In this document: positions 2,639 through 53,071 of the stretch, piece after piece | Layout of the letters: each line of letters begins with the position of its first letter | Numbering within the stretch: the first letter of the stretch is position 1 | Source of the DNA: Verrucomicrobiaceae bacterium | GTDB lineage: Bacteria > Verrucomicrobiota > Verrucomicrobiia > Verrucomicrobiales > Verrucomicrobiaceae | NCBI GenBank assembly: GCA_027490195.1 | Contig: JAIXYN010000006.1 | Coordinates: forward strand, 70,930 to 134,929 | Direction: 5' to 3' | DNA: 64,000 nt | The notes under the pieces: generated by a model | Database searches by the model: none | Seen by the model: only the letters and a program-made list of their open reading frames with translations | What the model was told of the DNA's origin: nothing | Position numbers and translations under genes: made by a program

Positions 2639-4165
2639 ATGGCCACCAAGAAAACCACCCCTGGCATTTGTTACCTCGTCGGCGCCGGTCCCGGCGACCC
2701 CGGACTCCTCACGCTCAAGGGCAAGGAATGCATCGAGGCCGCTGACGTGCTGGTTTACGACTACCTCTGCAACCCCGAGCACCTCCGCTACGCCAAGGAA
2801 GGCGCGGCCAGCATCTACGTCGGCAAGAAGGCGGGCAACCACACGCTCTCGCAGGATGAAATCAACAAGCTCATCGTCAAGCTCACCACCGAAGGCAAGA
2901 TCGTCACACGCCTGAAGGGCGGAGATCCCGTGCTCTTTGGCCGTGGGGCCGAAGAAGCCGCCGAACTCTACGAAGCCGGCGTGAAGTTTGAGATCGTCCC
3001 CGGCATCACCTCTGCCATCGCCGGCCCTGCCTACGCCGGCATTCCGGTCACGCATCGCTCCCACGCCTCCCAGCTCACCATCTTCACCGGCCACGAAGAC
3101 CCGACGAAGTCCGACACCTCGCTCAACTACGCCAAGCTCGCGCAGGCAGACGGCACCAAAGTCTTCCTCATGGGCGTGGAGCGCATTGATGAAATCACCC
3201 GCGAATTCCTCAAGCACGGTGCCAAACCCGAAACACCCGTCGCCCTCGTGCGCTGGGCTACTCACAGCCACCAGCAGACACTCGTCGGCACCCTCAGCGA
3301 CATCGCCGCCAAGGTGAAGGCCGCTGGTTTCAAAGCTCCCGCTGTCGCCATCGTGGGAGATGTCGTCACCGAGCGCCCGCAGTTGAACTGGTTTGAAGAC
3401 CGCCCGCTCTTTGGCAAAAGGATCGTCGTCACCCGCACTCGCGCGCAGGCCAGCGTGCTGAGCAAGCAGCTCTCCGTGCTCGGTGCCAATGTCATCGAAA
3501 TGCCCACCATCCGCATCGCCCCCGTGGAAGATCAGCTTTCTTTCGGCGAGCTCGTGCAGGACTGCCACACCTACGACTGGATCATCTTCACCAGCCCGAA
3601 CGGCGTGGATGCGTTCTTCACCATGTTCGACAAGCTCTACAACGACGCCCGCAGCATCGGTGGCGTGCGCATCGCCTGCATCGGACCCGGCACCGCTGAA
3701 AAGGTCAAGGCCCGCCACCTCGCCGTGGACCTCATGCCCGACAAAAAGAACTACGTCGCGGAAGGCCTCGTTAAAGCCTTCAAAGACCATCAGGACATGG
3801 AGAACGTGAAGGTCCTCTGGGTCCGCGCCCAGGAAGCGCGCGAAGTCATCGCCAACGAACTCAGCGGCATGGGTGCCATCGTCGATGAATGCGAAGCTTA
3901 CCGCACCATCGCAGAGACCGAGGACAACCTCGAAGCCCTCGCCCGCCTCAAAGAAGAAGGTGCCGACATGATCACCTTCACCAGCGCCTCCACCGTCGAG
4001 CATTTCCTCAATCTCAAAGTCGCACTCCCCGAAGGCATCAAAATCGCCAGCATCGGCCCCGTCACCAGCGCCGCAATCAAAGCCCGCGGCCTCAAGGTCG
4101 ATGTCGAAGCCAAAGAAAACACCATCCCCGGCCTCGTCGCAGCCGTGGAGAAGTTTTGGAAGTAA
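2639..4165 (+). CDS. cobA-hemD: Fused uroporphyrinogen-III C-methyltransferase / uroporphyrinogen-III synthase
   Basis: This 508-residue protein joins two tetrapyrrole enzymes. Residues about 8-250 are SUMT (CobA): VGAGPGDPGLLT near the start, then RLKGGDPVLFGRG and VPGITSAIAGPAYAGIP. It transfers two methyl groups from SAM to uroporphyrinogen III, giving precorrin-2. Residues about 258-505 are HemD, starting FGKRIVVTRTRAQAS, which closes hydroxymethylbilane to uroporphyrinogen III. There is no CysG-type dehydrogenase/ferrochelatase domain. The fusion is known in several phyla and supplies the haem, sirohaem and cobalamin routes. No other tetrapyrrole gene is adjacent. The repeat field at 4191 starts just downstream. 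Confidence 0.95.
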   Translation: MATKKTTPGICYLVGAGPGDPGLLTLKGKECIEAADVLVYDYLCNPEHLRYAKEGAASIYVGKKAGNHTLSQDEINKLIVKLTTEGKIVTRLKGGDPVLFGRGAEEAAELYEAGVKFEIVPGITSAIAGPAYAGIPVTHRSHASQLTIFTGHEDPTKSDTSLNYAKLAQADGTKVFLMGVERIDEITREFLKHGAKPETPVALVRWATHSHQQTLVGTLSDIAAKVKAAGFKAPAVAIVGDVVTERPQLNWFEDRPLFGKRIVVTRTRAQASVLSKQLSVLGANVIEMPTIRIAPVEDQLSFGELVQDCHTYDWIIFTSPNGVDAFFTMFDKLYNDARSIGGVRIACIGPGTAEKVKARHLAVDLMPDKKNYVAEGLVKAFKDHQDMENVKVLWVRAQEAREVIANELSGMGAIVDECEAYRTIAETEDNLEALARLKEEGADMITFTSASTVEHFLNLKVALPEGIKIASIGPVTSAAIKARGLKVDVEAKENTIPGLVAAVEKFWK

Positions 4166-4190
4166 GATCACAGTCATACCAAAGGCTGTG

Positions 4191-4365
4191 CCATGGGGTT
4201 TAGGTTCACTGGGTTCAGCATGGGTTCAAAATCCATTTTGAACCCATTGGGTTCAGGGTTCACGGGTTCATACCCTATATATAGGGTATGAACCCGTGAA
4301 CCCAAAACCCACCCTCCAACGGGTGAACCTGAACCCAACGGTGAACCTGAACCCAGAACCCGCCG
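4191..4365. repeat. GGTTCA/TGAACC repeat field with a perfect 48-bp palindrome
   Basis: The words GGGTTCA and TGAACCC recur about fifteen times in 170 bp. Bases 4256-4303 form a perfect palindrome with no spacer, 24-base arms centred on CCCTATATATAGGG (4273-4286). Bases 4221-4246 form a second hairpin with 12-base arms (TGGGTTCAAAAT and complement) and a 2-base loop. Further right, a unit with core GGTGAACCTGAACCCA occurs twice in direct order. No open frame fits the tract. It may be a cruciform-forming repeat, a protein-binding array, or replication-slippage debris. Confidence 0.9.
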
Positions 4366-4446
4366 CAGCCACCGCATACAAACCCATGGATCAAAATGCC
4401 AACATCCTGCCAGTTTATGGTATGATAGAATGATACCACGATTCGT

Positions 4447-4620
4447 AGAAAACAGTTCTGTTCTCCACTGGCAGCAGATTTCTTCTGGAACAGGCGGGCA
4501 GCGAGCTGCTCCGGTCGTAGGTTGGTCGTGTTTGGCGTCGAAAGAGTGCTTCGCTCCATCACTTCCTCCGCCAAACCGCCCGACCACCAGCGCGTTCGCA
4601 TGCCAAAGTGCGTTGCATGA
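4447..4620 (+). repeat. Dispersed repeat family E, copy 1
   Basis: The segment shares TAGGTTGGTCGTGTTT, then CTCCGCCAAACCGCCCGAC, with 8635-8800, with weaker similarity on both sides (AACAG.TCTGT... near the left end). A shorter inverted copy lies at 5838-5915. No protein is apparent in any frame. It occupies the middle of an 860-bp gap without a gene (4166-5029). Confidence 0.75.
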
Positions 4621-4869
4621 CCTTCACATACGGGCGGGCTTTCGCCACCCCCACCCAACGACGCCCAGACAAATGAACTTCATTGCACACAAGCCATCAT
4701 GCTTTTTCAGCGCAAAGCTCTCTCTGCAGGTGGTCCTTTCCAGACTCGTTTGCAACTACCTATGATATGATGCCGGAGAAGGATGCTCGTAGGTGGCGGG
4801 GACAGAGTTGAGTTTTGGGCATGCATGGAATGCAAGCTGTAGAGCGCAGACCTTCGAGTCATTCCGCTC

Positions 4870-8463: not shown

Positions 8464-8634
8464 TTAGACCCGTTCTCAAAAAGATTGTCATTTTGAACCG
8501 GCGAGCGCAGCGGCCCCAGTGGCAAGGAGAGTGCGCCACCTGCTATTTGTAAATAACAGGCAAGCACACGACGCAGCCAATGGGGCTGCTCCGCCGCCCG
8601 GGCAATGGGACAAGATTTTTGAGAGTTGGTCTAA
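8464..8634 (+). repeat. 171-bp near-palindromic MITE-like element, copy 1
   Basis: The ends are TTAGACC and GGTCTAA, and similarity between the arms continues inward: TCTCAAAAA...TTGTC near both ends, GGC(G/A)GCG-CAGC/CGGCCCC in the middle, and CCTGCTATTT/AAATAACAGG around the centre. The whole unit can fold into one long imperfect hairpin. An inverted copy at 27341-27511 has the same length and about seven differences (about 96% identity). There is no internal gene. TA dinucleotides lie just inside both ends, as expected for a TA-target element, but this is not proof. Confidence 0.92.
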
Positions 8635-19623: not shown

Positions 19624-19659
19624 AACCGCACATGGAATGTGCGGACCACTCCACGCTGG
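19624..19659 (+). repeat. Hairpin repeat family C, copy 1
   Basis: The hairpin CCGCACATGGAATGTGCGG is followed by ACCACTCCACGCTGG. Related copies at 30860, 35288 and 48889 change both arms but keep CCGCAC and the CCACTCCACGCTGG-like tail. Confidence 0.85.
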
Positions 19660-19964
19660 GTGCTTCGAGGGGCAAACTCCGATTTGGCGTGCCTTCACTG
19701 ATTGGCACAAGGGGAATTACGCTTCAGTCTTCGTTAGCAGCCTGTTGAAAAACTCCATCAAGAAACGTTGAGGCTGCAGAGCATGGTTGGCTGGAGAGGG
19801 AACATCCTGTTCCCCCGGTCTGGATGATGCGAGAGCGCTGGGCGGTGCGGGGGAGTGTGGGATCGGGACGATCCCTCTCCTCCAGGCGCTCAATGCGCAA
19901 ATCCGCCCGGGCTAGTTTATCAAAAGGCTGTTTTCTACTCTGGTATGTTATCGGGGTTGGGGGG

Positions 19965-24786: not shown

Positions 24787-24822
24787 GGCGCTGGCCGACA
24801 GACAGGAGTGTCTGTCGTACTT
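24787..24822 (+). repeat. Hairpin repeat family A, copy 1
   Basis: A 36-base unit: GGCGCTGG, then stem arms CGACAGACA and TGTCTGTCG around a GGAG loop (24796-24817), then TACTT. Other copies at 30961, 45188 and 53036. A second small hairpin, TGCCGGAGGCA, follows directly. Confidence 0.9.
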
Positions 24823-26144: not shown

Positions 26145-26188
26145 CACTGACTTCTCGCGGTTGTTTCATTGCGAGAAGTTTGTCAGTG
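26145..26188. terminator. Hairpin between convergent genes
   Basis: CACTGACTTCTCGC and GCGAGAAGTTTGTCAGTG pair with a short bulge around a 12-base loop. It lies just after the stop of the zinc-ribbon gene and could act for both directions, though no T-run is strong. Confidence 0.5.
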
Positions 26189-26193
26189 AGGGT

Positions 26194-26233
26194 GCGAGAC
26201 CGGAACCGCCTGAAGGCGGGACTGCAAAACGTG
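26194..26233 (+). repeat. Hairpin repeat family B, copy 1
   Basis: GACCGGAA, then stem CCGCC-TGAA-GGCGG, then GACTGCAAAACGTG. Compared with the 39-kb copies (CCGGC-TGAA-GCCGG) both arms changed together and the TGAA loop is kept. A (CGAGTT)n microsatellite of about four units follows at about 26333-26354. Confidence 0.85.
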
Positions 26234-26372
26234 GTCTGCGGACTGCGGGGCGCTGAGCGGGTGTGGAGCTGAAGCGATTATCGGTGCCGCGTTGTGTATT
26301 CGGAGCTCAGCGCGAGAGCGGAGTGGAAGGATCGAGTTCGAGTTCGAGTTCGAGGATGAGGAGGGAACTCGA

Positions 26373-27340: not shown

Positions 27341-27511
27341 CTAGTCCAACTCTCAAAAGTCTTGTCACATTGCCCGGGCGGCGGAGCGGCCCCATTGGCT
27401 GCGTCGTGTGCTTGCCTGTTATTTCCAAATAGCAGGTGGCGCACTCTCCTTGCCACTGGGGCCGCTGCGCTCGCCAGTTCAAAATGACAATCTTTTTGAG
27501 AACGGGTCTAA
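27341..27511 (-). repeat. 171-bp near-palindromic MITE-like element, copy 2
   Basis: This is the inverted copy of 8464-8634 with the same length and about seven differences, mostly at the TAGTCC end. It lies 38 bases downstream of the PL6 lyase stop. The flanking TAGGTTGG...TTCGCATGCC (minus strand) looks like a shortened family E repeat, so an element may have entered or abutted family E here too. Confidence 0.92.
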
Positions 27512-30859: not shown

Positions 30860-30996
30860 GCCGCACATGGAATGTGCGGACTACTCCACGATGGATGGGT
30901 TCAAATTTGCCGGACGTGCGGAAGGAGGCGATGGGGACTTTTACGCGTCGGGTGTGGCGGGGCGCTGGTCGACAGACAGGAGTGTCTATCGTACTT
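30860..30996 (+). repeat. Hairpin repeats: family C copy 2 and family A copy 2
   Basis: Family C (30860-30894): CCGCACATGGAATGTGCGG then ACTACTCCACGATGG. Family A (30961-30996): GGCGCTGG, arms CGACAGACA and TGTCTATCG around GGAG, then TACTT, with one C-A mismatch. Both lie in the gene-free gap 30790-31298. I see no gene in the rest of that gap. Confidence 0.85.
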
Positions 30997-35164: not shown

Positions 35165-35402
35165 CCAGGGGTCTTCGACCCCTGGCTACCCGCTGTGATC
35201 CCCTTCGGGGATCGAGGAATGGACGGCCTCATCCAGCATGAAGATCATGGCGCTCTAGTGCGATTCTTAACTGCATGCAGAACCCGGACCGCACTCGGAG
35301 AGTGCGGCCCACTCCACGCTGGAGCTACGGGTGCGTGGGGTATTGCGGGGCATTTTGCAGCAATCGGAGCTTTCTCTGCAGGCAAGAGTGCCTGCATCAC
35401 TT
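35165..35402 (+). repeat. Hairpin repeats: family D layout copy 6, family C copy 3, family A relative
   Basis: 35165-35185: CCAGGGGTC-TTC-GACCCCTGG, then CTACCCGCTGT, then GATCCCC-TTC-GGGGATC (35197-35213). 35288-35322: CCGCACT-CGGAG-AGTGCGG, then CCCACTCCACGCTGG. 35378-35395: GCAGGCA-AGAG-TGCCTGC, similar to family A. Three families are packed in one gap of 366 bp. Confidence 0.85.
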
Positions 35403-38400
35403 GCCGAGGAGGAAGGCAAGGAGATCGGCCATTTGGTCTTTGGTGATGGCGGCTTCGAGGCCGACGGGCATGAGGGTGTGATCGAGGGATTTCATTTCCT
35501 TGATGGCGGTGCGCTGGATGGTTTCCTTGGCTCCGCCCATCATGGCGAGGACAATGGCATCACCAGTCTCGCTTTGGATGAGGCCGGAGAGGGTGCGGCC
35601 GTCTTTGGTTTCGACGGTGTAGGCGCTCCAGCGGGCTTCGAACATGCGGTTGGGGTCGAGGATGTCGGAGAGGAGGCCTTCGGGGGGCTTCACTTTGACG
35701 TCGGAGAGAGGAGGGCCGACATCGACACCGAGGGTGCCGTGCTTGTGGCAGGTGATGCAGATGGTGGCGAAGACCTGCTGACCTTTTTGGGCGTTCCCTT
35801 TCATGGTGGTGGCGACCATGTAGTCCTGCACGACTTTAGCGCGGTCGCTGCTGGCTTCGCCGAAGAGTTTCTTGGCGAGTGTGGGCATTTCGCCGGTGCC
35901 GCGCTGGTAGCGCCAGCGGGTTTCGACATCGACCCAGGCGGTGGGGAACTCGCCCGCTTCCATGCGTTTGAACAGAGCGAGCGCGGTGGTGGCGTTGGCG
36001 GTGAGGACGGGGACGAGGTCGCGCTTCAATGCGGGGCCGGCTTTGGGCAGGAGTTCATAGATGAGCGGCGAGGTGGTGGTGGCGGGGTATTTCTTCAGCA
36101 GGGCGAGTGCGGCGGTTGTTAGTTCCGCAGGCTGGTTGGTGGTGAGCAAGGTCTTTACCACGGGCTGCACGGCATCCCATTTGCGCTGGCCGAGGAGGGG
36201 CATGACGGCGAGGCGTTGGTCGAGGGGTGCCTTATTGTCAGCGATGACTTCGTCCACCTTTAGAAGCAACACATTGATTTCCTTCGCTGCATCCTCAAAG
36301 CCAGGAGGCGGCTTGGAGACGAATGCCGCGAGCGATTTCACACCCAGCTTACCGCCGGATTTGGGCAGACCTTCTGCAAGGCCTTGGAGAAGCGCGGGTT
36401 TCCACCAAGTTAGGGTTGAGGGCGTGATTCTCACCGAGTTCATCGCAGACCAGAAATCATAGTTGGCGAGCTGTGATTGCCCGGCTTGCGAAGAGCTGAT
36501 CCGAGCAAGGTTTTTAACAAAGTCAGCCTTTGACGCGGTCATTGTTGATGAGGCTGGCTGCTTCACAAACCAATCGAGGATCACTCCAGCGGTGGCTTCA
36601 TGATCTTCGGTCATGGCCGCCAATAGAACTGCTTTAAAGATCCACGGGTCATCCGAAAAGCGAGCCAGAACACGCTGAATCAAATCCGCGTTCAACCTCG
36701 TTGGCCTAGCTGTCGATTGACAAAGCGATAAGAAGGCGATGCGAGTGAGATCACTATTTTCCATCTTAAAAAAGTCATCAGTGGCATGCCAGGTATAAAA
36801 ATCTGTAAAGCAACCGGACAGCACTTCAAACAATCGAGCGTCATCTAGAATGCGATACGAGTTCGGCTTTCCAGCTTTGTCGATGATGTCACGGAGTTTT
36901 TCATCGGTGTGGCGGCGATAGAGAGTGGAGACGACTGAATAGAAATGGATGTCGAAGAGCGTCGATGCTGACTGTTTCACCGAGGCGGCTGCAAAAGAGG
37001 ACAATTCCTCCGGCGGTAGTGTCGCAAGCAACCGCTGCGCCGTCTCGCGCTGCCATGCGTTTTCGTTCCCGAGCCACTCAACGAGTTTATCTATCTCCTT
37101 CGGTGCGGCTTCCACCTTTGGTGCTTTTTTGCCCTTAGGCACCACACGCCAGATGCGGCCTTCGTTTTCGCCTTGGCGCATGTCGTGGGTTTTGACGAAC
37201 TCTTCGGGGAAGAAGCGGGCGTGGTCGATCCAGCGGCGGTAGATGTCGCAAATGTAGATGGCACCGTCGGGGCCGGTGGTGAAGTTGACAGGGCGGGACC
37301 ATTCGTCGCTGCTGCGGAAGAATTCGGTGCGGTCGCCAATACGGGTGGCTTTGAGAGATGCGCCGTTGGGGGTGATCTTGTAGCGGGTGACGAGCTGGCC
37401 GGTGGGATCGGGGACGAAGACGTTGTTTTTCAGCTCGGGCATGAGTGGGCCGCGATAGACGCCGAGGCCGGAGCAGGCGGTGTTGGTGCCGGCGTGGGCG
37501 TCTGCGGTGGTGTGGGTGATCTGAAGCGGGAAGACGCGGGTCTCTGCGCCGAAGGGAGCGATGTCCTCGTAGTTCTGCGTGATGCCTGCATTGGGATTGC
37601 GCAGCATGGCCTCGTAGGGCATGACGGTGAACATGAGGGGATTGCGATTCGAGCAGTAGAAGTGGTGGCCGTAGTCATCGAACGCGCCGCCGTACTGGCC
37701 TTTGCCACCAGTGAGGGTGATCTTGTCGGTGCGGGGGTCCCATTTGAAATTGCTGCCGGGGATGTTCACGACATCGGTGGGATTGTCGGCGGGGTAGATC
37801 TCGCGGGCATCGAGGCCGTTGTTGAAATGGACGCAGCCGTCGAGGCCCCAGCGCGGGGCGCTGACCTGGAGCTGGGCGTGCTTGGGATTGAAGCCTTTGA
37901 TGAGGGATTTGATCTCGTCGGCCTTGCCATCGCCATCGGTGTCTTTGAGGAAGAGAATCTGTGAGCGGGTGGTGGCGATGAGGCCGCCGTTGTAGGGGAG
38001 GAGGCCCTGCACGTTGTCCATGTGATCGGCAAAGGTGACGGCTTTGTCCATGCGGCCGTCGCCATTTTCATCGGTGAGGAGCTGGATGCGGGAGAGCCAG
38101 GGATCTCCGGCGACTGGAGGGCCGAGGGGGTAGTCGCGCATGTCTGCGACATACATGCGGCCTTGCGCATCCCAGGTGCATTCGACGGGGTCGAGCACGA
38201 GGGGCTCGGCGGCGACGAGCTGGACTTCGTAGTCACCATCGAGCTGGATGCGCTTGAGGGATTCTTCGGGAGAGAGTGCTTTGGACTGGCCATCGCGCAC
38301 GGCACCGATGTCGCTGCCGCCGCTGGCCTGGATGGCGCTCCACTTTTCTTTGAATTCGCCGAGGGGATACAATTCGTAACGGCGCACGAGCATTTCTGCG

Positions 38401-39158: not shown

Positions 39159-39336
39159 GAAGTGAGTACGGCGAGGGTTAGCGTATCATTACGGCGTGGG
39201 GGGCGGTGATGCAGACACGATTGAGGCCAAACTTGGTGCTTTTGTGATGGGGGGGGACACGAGGGGTGTCGCATCGCCCAACCCCATGCTGCAATGGCTT
39301 CGCCATCGGTGGGGTAATTGAAGTGGGCTCAGGGCG

Positions 39337-39660
39337 GCGCGACCGGAACCGGCTGAAGCCGGGACTACAATACGTGCGCTGTGGACTGCGGGGTGATGGG
39401 GGATTTTCGCCCTGTGACTTCAAGCTATGTGGCACTGCTTTGGTATGCGCTGTGGGTAGCGCGACCGGAACCGGCTGAAGCCGGGACTACATTACGTGTG
39501 CTGTGGAGTGCGGGGTGATGGGAGGATTTTGGCCCTGTGACTTCAAGCTATGTGGCACTGCATTGGTATGCGCTGGGTAGCGCGACCGGAACCGGCTGAA
39601 GCCGGGACTGCATTACGTGTGCTGCGGTGATTCCAGAACGAGCTGAAGCTCGGGAGTACT
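39337..39660 (+). repeat. Tandem 121-122-bp repeat carrying hairpin family B
   Basis: Units start at 39337, 39459 and 39580. Each begins GCGCGACCGGAA, then CCGGCTGAAGCCGG, then GACTAC or GACTGC, CA(A/T)TACGTG, and two units continue with GCTGTGGA.TGCGGGGTGATGG and a shared CTTCAAGCTATGTGGCACTGC. The third is cut short and is followed by GAACGAGCTGAAGCTCG (39636-39652), a related hairpin. The gap 39159-39670 holds no gene. Confidence 0.9.
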
Positions 39661-45105: not shown

Positions 45106-45223
45106 CCAGTTGCGGCGCAACTGGGCTACTTTGCTGGCGCTGTTTTCGGCTGGTTTATGGTTAGGCGCAGGCTAGGGAGATTGCGAGGGCGCTGGTCGAC
45201 GGGCAGGAGTGCCCATCGTACTT
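45106..45223 (+). repeat. Hairpin repeats, including family A copy 3
   Basis: CCAGTTGC-GGC-GCAACTGG (45106-45124) followed by GCTACTTTGCTGG, then family A (45188-45223): GGCGCTGG, arms CGACGGGCA and TGCCCATCG around GGAG, then TACTT. The middle of the stem changed from AGA/TCT to GGG/CCC compared with the 24.8-kb copy. Confidence 0.85.
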
Positions 45224-47986: not shown

Positions 47987-48013
47987 CCTCAGGGTGGCGA
48001 GGTGCCCATCTCC

Positions 48014-48114
48014 AAGGTGACGGGGTCTCCTGACCCCGTCTGCATTTCAAGGATTGGAGCGCGCTACACGGTCCGATCTTCAGAAAAGACGGGGTCGGGA
48101 GACCCCGTCACCTT
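48014..48114. terminator. Inverted-repeat pair between convergent genes
   Basis: Bases 48014-48041 and 48087-48114 are 28-base inverted copies with one mismatch, and each arm is itself a hairpin (GACGGGGTC-TCCT-GACCCCGTC; GACGGGGTC-GGGA-GACCCCGTC). They lie between the stops of the DUF6797 gene and ruvA, so they may end both transcripts; no T-run is seen. Confidence 0.7.
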
Positions 48115-48117
48115 GGT

Positions 48118-51721: not shown

Positions 51722-52912
51722 ATGCTCCGCCTTGCTCTGAAAATGCTGTTTGGTGACACGGCTAAGTACCTGATGCTGGTCGCGGGTCTTGCGGTGGCGA
51801 CGTTTTTGATGACGCAGCAGACGGCGGTGTTTTGTGGGCTGATGAGCTGGACGAAATCGACGCTGAAAAACGTTCCGGCACCGATCTGGGTGGTGGAGGA
51901 AAAGGTGGAGCAGGTCAATGAGACGAATCCGCTGCTGGACACTGATGTGGCGCGAGTGCGCAGCGTTAGCAGCGTGGCCTGGGCAGCGCCGATCTATTCG
52001 GGCATCCAGCGAGTGCGCTTGGAGAACGGGAACTTCAAGATGATCCAGCTCATCGGCATTGATGCCAACACACTGGCCGGAGCGCCAGCGAAGATGCTGG
52101 AGGGTGATCTGATGAAACTGCGGCTGCCGCATTCAGTGATCATTGATGATCTGGGAGTGACGCGACTGGCACCCAAACGTGGCAACAAAGTGAAGGTGGG
52201 CGACATGTTTGAGCTCAATGATCAGGAGGCGCGGGTCGTAGGGATCGCCGATGCGGCGACGTCCTTCACCGGTGGCCCTTATGTCTGGACGACCTATGAG
52301 CGAGCACTGCAATATGTGCCGGCCCAGCGCAAGATGCTGCAGGCGGTGATCTGCGCCCCGCGCGAGGGCGTAAGCCTGGATAAGGCGGTGGCGGACATCC
52401 AGCGTGAGACGGGCCTGAAGGCGTTTGTGAACCGTGAAGCGGGCTTTGGCGAGTTCTGGGCACAACGCGGTGGCGCAAAGACAGACAACTTCAATGTCTC
52501 GACCGTGTGGTGGTACGTCAAAAACACCGGCATTCCGATTTCCTTCGGCACCACGGTCATCATCGGTCTGCTCGTCGGCATGGCGGTGAGCTGCCAGACG
52601 TTTTACTCGTTCGTGCTCGAAAACATGCGGCATCTCGGCGCGCTGAAAGCAATGGGCGCATCGAATGGCACGCTATGCCTGATGCTGATTGCACAGGCGT
52701 TCACCGCTGGCCTGATTGGTTACGGCATTGGTTTGCTCGGCACGGCGGGTTTCGCCATGGGGGCCATGAAGAATGAACAGCCACCTTTCTACATGCCGCA
52801 GTTTGTCCCCTTTGCTGCGCTGGCGGTGGTGCTGGGCATCTGCACGCTGGCGGCGCTGATGGGCATCTGGCGCGTAAGCAAGCTGGAACCGGCGATGGTG
52901 TTTAGGAGTTGA
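51722..52912 (+). CDS. ABC transporter permease, MacB/FtsX-like
   Basis: The 396-residue protein has one N-terminal membrane helix, a large periplasmic core (MacB_PCD-like; IGIDANTLAGAPAKMLEGD, RLAPKRGNKVKVGD) and three C-terminal FtsX helices (VIIGLLVGMAVSCQTFYSFV, LMLIAQAFTAGLIGYGIGLL, ALAVVLGICTLAALMGIW). The order matches DevC/MacB-type permeases. No cognate ATPase or membrane-fusion gene is adjacent; the next gene, an exporter, is on the other strand. ATG at 51722. Confidence 0.9.
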   Translation: MLRLALKMLFGDTAKYLMLVAGLAVATFLMTQQTAVFCGLMSWTKSTLKNVPAPIWVVEEKVEQVNETNPLLDTDVARVRSVSSVAWAAPIYSGIQRVRLENGNFKMIQLIGIDANTLAGAPAKMLEGDLMKLRLPHSVIIDDLGVTRLAPKRGNKVKVGDMFELNDQEARVVGIADAATSFTGGPYVWTTYERALQYVPAQRKMLQAVICAPREGVSLDKAVADIQRETGLKAFVNREAGFGEFWAQRGGAKTDNFNVSTVWWYVKNTGIPISFGTTVIIGLLVGMAVSCQTFYSFVLENMRHLGALKAMGASNGTLCLMLIAQAFTAGLIGYGIGLLGTAGFAMGAMKNEQPPFYMPQFVPFAALAVVLGICTLAALMGIWRVSKLEPAMVFRS

Positions 52913-53035
52913 GGGGTGTCGCTGCGATCAACCCCTTGCTACACGCTGAGATGGCTACGCCATCAATAAGCATTGAAGGCAAGGCATCCCTGATCTGAAG
53001 AGCGTGGGGGGCTTGAGAGCTTGGGATGATTGGAA

Positions 53036-53071
53036 GGCGCTGGCCGACAGGCAGGAGTGCCTGTCGTACTT
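53036..53071 (+). repeat. Hairpin repeat family A, copy 4
   Basis: GGCGCTGG, arms CGACAGGCA and TGCCTGTCG around GGAG, then TACTT. The A-T pair of the first copy has become G-C in both arms. It lies just downstream of the ABC exporter stop. Confidence 0.9.

Follow-up and report, generated by a model that had tools for sequence, protein, structure and literature searches.

The window, by which we mean the whole 64-kb stretch of DNA that was analyzed, is part of contig 92 in a genome (G000) of 7.0 Mb and 101 contigs. It contains four copies of a short hairpin repeat, here called Family A. A preliminary description of this DNA had placed 36-bp hairpins at 24787, 30961, 45188, and 53036, and reading the plus strand we recovered all four at these positions. 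They are listed below under the strand that most likely folds.

24787..24822, reverse strand: Family A, REP-like copy 1; AGA/TCT stem with perfect 9-bp pairing
Parts of copy 1 as read on the plus strand: stem 24796-24804, GGAG loop 24805-24808, stem 24809-24817
24817-24820: tag of copy 1, GTAC (a palindromic word), 5' of the hairpin on the reverse strand
30961..30996, reverse strand: Family A, REP-like copy 2; AGA/TCT stem with the C-A position (T-G on the reverse strand)
45188..45223, reverse strand: Family A, REP-like copy 3; GGG/CCC stem with the C-A position (T-G on the reverse strand)
53036..53071, reverse strand: Family A, REP-like copy 4; AGG/CCT stem

A plus-strand ORF ends about 90 to 170 bp before each of the four copies. 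On the plus strand, all four follow the pattern GGCGCTGG-Y-[CGACrGrCA]-GGAG-[TGyCyrTCG]-TACTT. The fixed GGAG loop and the constant end motifs that had been described hold without exception, with no mismatch in GGCGCTGG or TACTT in any copy. The paired stem changes are present as well (AGA/TCT at 24787 and 30961, GGG/CCC at 45188, and AGG/CCT at 53036), and the C-A mismatch reported at one place in two copies falls in the same stem pair in 30961 and 45188. We found four 9-bp hairpins with a GGAG loop and at most one mismatch in the 64 kb, and all of them are Family A. The same search on 50 block shuffles returned no hairpin in 46 and one hairpin in 4. The described length of 36 bp was right at one end only: conservation drops sharply past TACTT, but on the other side it fades gradually through RGCGCTGAT to about position -30, and the repeat therefore extends beyond 36 bp.

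Copies from the wider set of genomes gave a consensus (183 distinct copies) of CGAYRGRCA-GGAG-TGYCYRTCG, followed by TACTT. When the 630 column pairs of 150 distinct 36-mers were ranked by mutual information, stem pairs 7 (0.94) and 5 (0.58) took the top two places. Pair 7 was paired in 147 of the 150 copies (shuffle mean, 110; maximum, 120) and pair 5 in 131 (shuffle mean, 101; maximum, 111), in a shuffle test that ignores relatedness among the copies. Because the top two correlations are the two variable stem pairs, the stem changes of Family A are compensatory. Thus, the stem differences are paired in a wider survey too, and the covariation over 150 distinct copies supports the structural selection suggested in the preliminary description. 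A swap at a single site was also observed: the orthologue of the 53036 copy in the relative G020 has A-T at stem pair 7, versus G-C in G000. This swap may alternatively be a replacement by gene conversion.

The imperfect stems bear on the question of which strand folds. On the strand read in the preliminary description, the non-Watson-Crick stem pairs are C-A or A-C in 126 cases versus G-T or T-G in 5. Read on the opposite strand, the 126 pairs are T-G or G-T wobbles. The predicted DNA folding energies agree, at -7.2 kcal/mol for the plus strand of a 45188-type copy versus -9.0 kcal/mol for the reverse strand. Both results oppose the plus strand as the functional one. Because of the wobble asymmetry, we take the reverse strand as the folding strand, and the working strand is most likely 5'-AAGTAC-GAYRGRCACTCCTG...-ATCAGCGC, in which AAGTAC is followed by the 9-bp stem with a CTCC loop and then by ATCAGCGC. 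The hairpins first described are real, but they most likely fold on the other strand than the one that was read, and on that strand the C-A mismatch becomes a T·G wobble. Such an asymmetry is a simple means of telling which strand of a repeat folds.

Copy numbers were obtained from pattern searches of genomes. In G000, there are at least 53 copies of the 27-bp core CGACNGNCAGGAGTGNCNRTCGTACTT with up to two mismatches, and a reversed control pattern of this core gave no matches. Family A is present in 9 of 24 genomes of the genus, namely, G000 (53 copies) and eight others with 2 to 42 copies. Pattern searches found none in the 15 other genomes of the genus and none in 13 genomes of the order that belong to other genera. 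When one genome per species was scanned for exact matches, 94 stretches with Family A were returned, and among the matches listed, all records were from Prosthecobacter or from Verrucomicrobia/Verrucomicrobiaceae MAGs. Family A is restricted to Prosthecobacter-type genomes among those searched.

Repetitive extragenic palindromes (REPs) are imperfect palindromes of 20 to 40 bp with many dispersed, mainly extragenic copies. Family A has this form, with a 9-bp stem, a 4-nt loop, and the 53 copies in G000. Among the 155 copies with enough flanking sequence, 116 lay outside ORFs by a simple and crude ORF call, and 39 lay within predicted ORFs, although many of these ORFs may be spurious. By the same simple call, the intergenic copies comprise 50 between convergent genes, 58 between co-directional genes, and 8 between divergent genes.

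This location, the rarity of divergent sites, the covarying stem, and the placement of all four window copies behind plus-strand ORFs would also fit an RNA element placed at the 3' ends of genes, either an intrinsic terminator or a stabilizer of mRNA ends, whose hairpin is conserved for a role in the transcript. Such a role had been implied by the preliminary description, but several observations make it very unlikely. An intrinsic terminator combines a G+C-rich hairpin with a T-tract, whereas the stem of Family A is followed by TACTTC, and terminator scans called none of the four window copies. There was also no Rfam match in the window. We therefore rejected a terminator or known RNA, and the implied role is unsupported. 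Moreover, an RNA hairpin would not need a fixed loop and unpaired flanks, and because the folding strand is the reverse strand, the transcripts of the upstream plus-strand genes would bear the C-A mismatch in two of the four window copies. REPs that persist under selection against damage to promoters should likewise be scarce at divergent sites. Family A may still have a secondary effect on transcript ends.

The arrangement of the copies adds a further feature. A REPIN consists of two REPs in inverted orientation with their tag ends outward. Among 59 close pairs, a count in which the loose pattern took in a few sister or related hairpin families, 45 were inverted with the AAGTAC (GTAC) ends outward, 2 had the opposite inverted orientation, and 12 were in tandem. 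Family A thus resembles the REPINs that Bertels and Rainey reportedly described in 2011. It differs from them in that its spacers vary from a few to more than 300 bp, with no one conserved unit, and in that many copies are single.

We also compared the window sites with their orthologues. The genes that neighbor the 24787 copy occur together without the hairpin in G011, G012, and G007. At the 53036 site, the intergenic gap is 170 bp in G000 and holds Family A and another repeat; the orthologous gap is 9 bp in G007, 31 bp in G010, and 42 bp in G003, and in G011 and G012 it holds a different REP family. The repeat adjoining the 53036 copy (52911-52964) is 54 bp long and has many copies, 85 to 93% identical, in several genomes of the genus. 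The site orthologous to 45188 has an identical 27-bp core in G020, and in G001 it has a different RAYT with other REPs. The high conservation of the loop and flanks and the intergenic location of the copies could be taken to indicate a structural site that acts in cis, either in recombination or as the target of a host protein, and that is selected at fixed positions and not mobile. However, the positions are not conserved, since orthologous gaps are empty or hold other REP families. Family A is also patchily present across the genus and is linked to a transposase gene, as described below. A fixed site of this kind is therefore extremely improbable.

RAYTs are IS200-like HUH/Y1 single-strand transposases. 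In a scan of the loci around Family A copies, we found one RAYT gene adjoined by Family A, at locus L135 of G001. This gene, RAYT-A, is an ORF on the reverse strand (3984-4625; 213 aa), and Family A copies lie at both of its ends. In G022, a syntenic RAYT that is 85% identical to it has Family A on both sides, with one copy degraded. Thus, the same hairpins flank a RAYT gene at both loci. The G001 protein scored 29.6 against Pfam Y1_Tnp, above the cut-off of 23, and its best NCBIfam match, REP_Tyr_transpos, reached 58 bits, below the curated cut-off of 80. It carries the motif NHVH and has weak PDB matches to IS200/IS605-type transposases and to the E. coli-type TnpAREP structure 4er8. In a tree of 46 proteins, the G001 and G022 RAYT-A proteins form a pair (starred) that falls in a clade of seven. 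The hairpins of the remaining clade members have GTGA and GTAG tags and share the inner core of Family A. The GTAC, GTGA, and GTAG hairpin families thus sit on sister RAYT clades, and the order in which these three groups branch within the seven-member clade is not resolved. Judged from sequence, the pairing of Family A with RAYT-A is the most likely one. It draws on one orthologous locus in two genomes, because G000 and most of the other genomes with Family A lack a cognate RAYT.

In G000 itself, RAYT-A was not found, and the best RAYT match is 46% identical. We checked 16 Y1_Tnp loci in this genome, and no Family A copy lay within about 1.5 kb of any of them; on this basis, we rejected the idea that G000 has its own cognate RAYT. 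The locus orthologous to that of RAYT-A has a single Family A copy and no transposase in G000. This copy lies 6 bp past the matched stretch of the neighbor gene, where G001 also has one. The orthologous locus has a degraded copy in G011, and no copy was seen there in G012 and G020. These observations fit a loss of RAYT-A; they also fit a scenario in which the ancestor of G001 and G022 gained the gene next to a REP that was already there. It is possible but unlikely that the gene was missed in the G000 assembly, because the genome is about 95% complete. Since G000 lost RAYT-A or never had it, its Family A copies are probably orphan relics that are now vertically inherited.

That G000 has at least 53 copies yet no RAYT-A could also mean that Family A is a REP mobilized in trans by another RAYT or by an insertion sequence. 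G000 does have seven RAYT-like genes, at most 46% identical to RAYT-A, and several of them adjoin other hairpins. However, none of its Y1_Tnp loci has Family A nearby, and the sister RAYTs carry hairpin families of their own. We consider mobilization by an enzyme other than RAYT-A unlikely.

Family A is, very probably, a REP/REPIN family, that is, a nonautonomous DNA element spread by a RAYT. The mobile hairpin offered as one possibility in the preliminary description gains support from the dispersed copies, the inverted REPIN-type pairs, the empty orthologous gaps, and the RAYT gene flanked by the same hairpins. At the level of sequence comparison, the RAYT association, the stem pairing, the REPIN layout, and the empty sites are evident. 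Binding, cleavage, and movement of Family A by RAYT-A are what we infer from them. RAYT-A or an ancestor would recognize the folded single strand through the tag, the fixed loop, and the intact stem. It would then cleave beside the hairpin and copy or move it to other intergenic sites. If RAYT-A acts like known RAYTs, copies with unpaired stems would not be propagated and only those with an intact stem and loop would be, which would account for the compensatory stem changes and the fixed loop. In this way, the hairpins are explained as a REP/REPIN family whose likely transposase can be named in two relatives.

The tag sets Family A apart from known systems. Di Nocera et al. 2013 (PMC3733652) described GTAG-tagged REPs in Opitutus terrae and others, found Verrucomicrobia to be rich in them, and reported the variant tag GTGG; the string GTAC is absent from the text of that paper. 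Like those REPs, Family A is a short, RAYT-linked palindrome with many intergenic copies and dimers, in genomes with several families each, and its tag stands at the 5' foot of the hairpin. Unlike them, it has the tag GTAC, in which the fourth base is changed, in 169 of 192 copies. The C of this tag can double as the first paired base of the stem. A strict GTAG family has an unpaired GTAG at the 5' foot; in Family A the letter differs, but the position matches that of the GTAG or GTGA of the sister families. Because the tag is a GTAC variant, we do not claim membership in the GTAG superfamily. Another close comparison is the sister family AAGTGATGCGGGCACTCYTGCCCGCA of the same genus, which has the same inner stem and loop core as Family A and flanks RAYTs that are 48 to 58% identical to RAYT-A. 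It differs in its GTGA tag and in its outer stem.

Corneloup et al. 2021 (PMC8266576) studied the TnpAREP/REP systems of E. coli, Stenotrophomonas, and Marinomonas. In their work, RAYTs recognized the single-stranded REP through its tag, its loop, and an intact stem, and the two enzymes whose palindromes are perfect cleaved less when the stem contained mismatches. With GTAC in place of GTAG, the Marinomonas enzyme cut at GA or GT instead, and the Stenotrophomonas enzyme no longer cleaved. As in these systems, RAYT-A adjoins its own REPs, but there GTAC was a laboratory mutant, whereas in Family A it is the natural majority tag. One reading is that the tag drifted from GTAG to GTAC together with the enzyme, which would then cleave at GA or GT rather than at CT or CA, as the Marinomonas mutant predicts. 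We regard this reading as possible but doubtful. The element edge 5'-G/AAGTAC (the slash marks the edge) fits a G/A cut, and G is found at -3 in 55% of Family A copies; the sister GTAG family also has G at that place. A covariation of tag and cut site, with C before the A-run for GTAG and G for GTAC, was unsupported: GTAG family 'a' has G before its A-run in 30 of 38 copies, and family 'c' is mixed (C, 43; G, 29; T, 17). The genus has several parallel RAYT-hairpin pairs, with the tags GTAG, GTAC, GTGA, and GTGG. These pairs could reveal the coevolution of transposase and DNA tag, which has so far been tested with few enzymes in vitro.

Other repeats were observed in the window. A second REP family, GTAG-CCCAGTTGCGCCGCAACTGG, has a reverse-strand copy at 45106-45137, about 50 bp from the Family A copy at 45188, and a RAYT with flanking copies of it lies at L041 in G000. 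A third hairpin family, in which CCGCACATGGAATGTGCGG is followed by ACCACTCC or ACTACTCC and the reverse tag is GTGG or GTAG, is found at 19626-19662, 30861-30897, and 35289-35325; in G001 the CCGCACATGGAATGTGCGG family flanks the different RAYT at the orthologue of the 45188 site. One reverse-strand copy (35377-35408) belongs to the GTGA-tagged sister REP family (AAGTGATGCAGGCACTCTTGCCTGCA) whose RAYTs are in G018, G006, and G020. At 48012-48116 there is an inverted pair, GACGGGGTCGGGAGACCCCGTC ... ACCTTGG, and the same hairpin flanks a RAYT at L036 in G000. Three tandem units of about 122 bp with GGAACCGGCTGAAGCCGGGACTAC, a GTAG-type hairpin on the reverse strand, occupy 39324-39655, with a dispersed copy at 26181-26269. 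The stretches 8464-8633 and 27342-27511 form a 170-nt inverted repeat, 96% complementary and 18.7 kb apart. Finally, 4248-4311 is a near-perfect palindrome (TGGGTTCAGGGTTCACGGGTTCATACCCTATA) with 32-bp arms that are 94% complementary and have no spacer.
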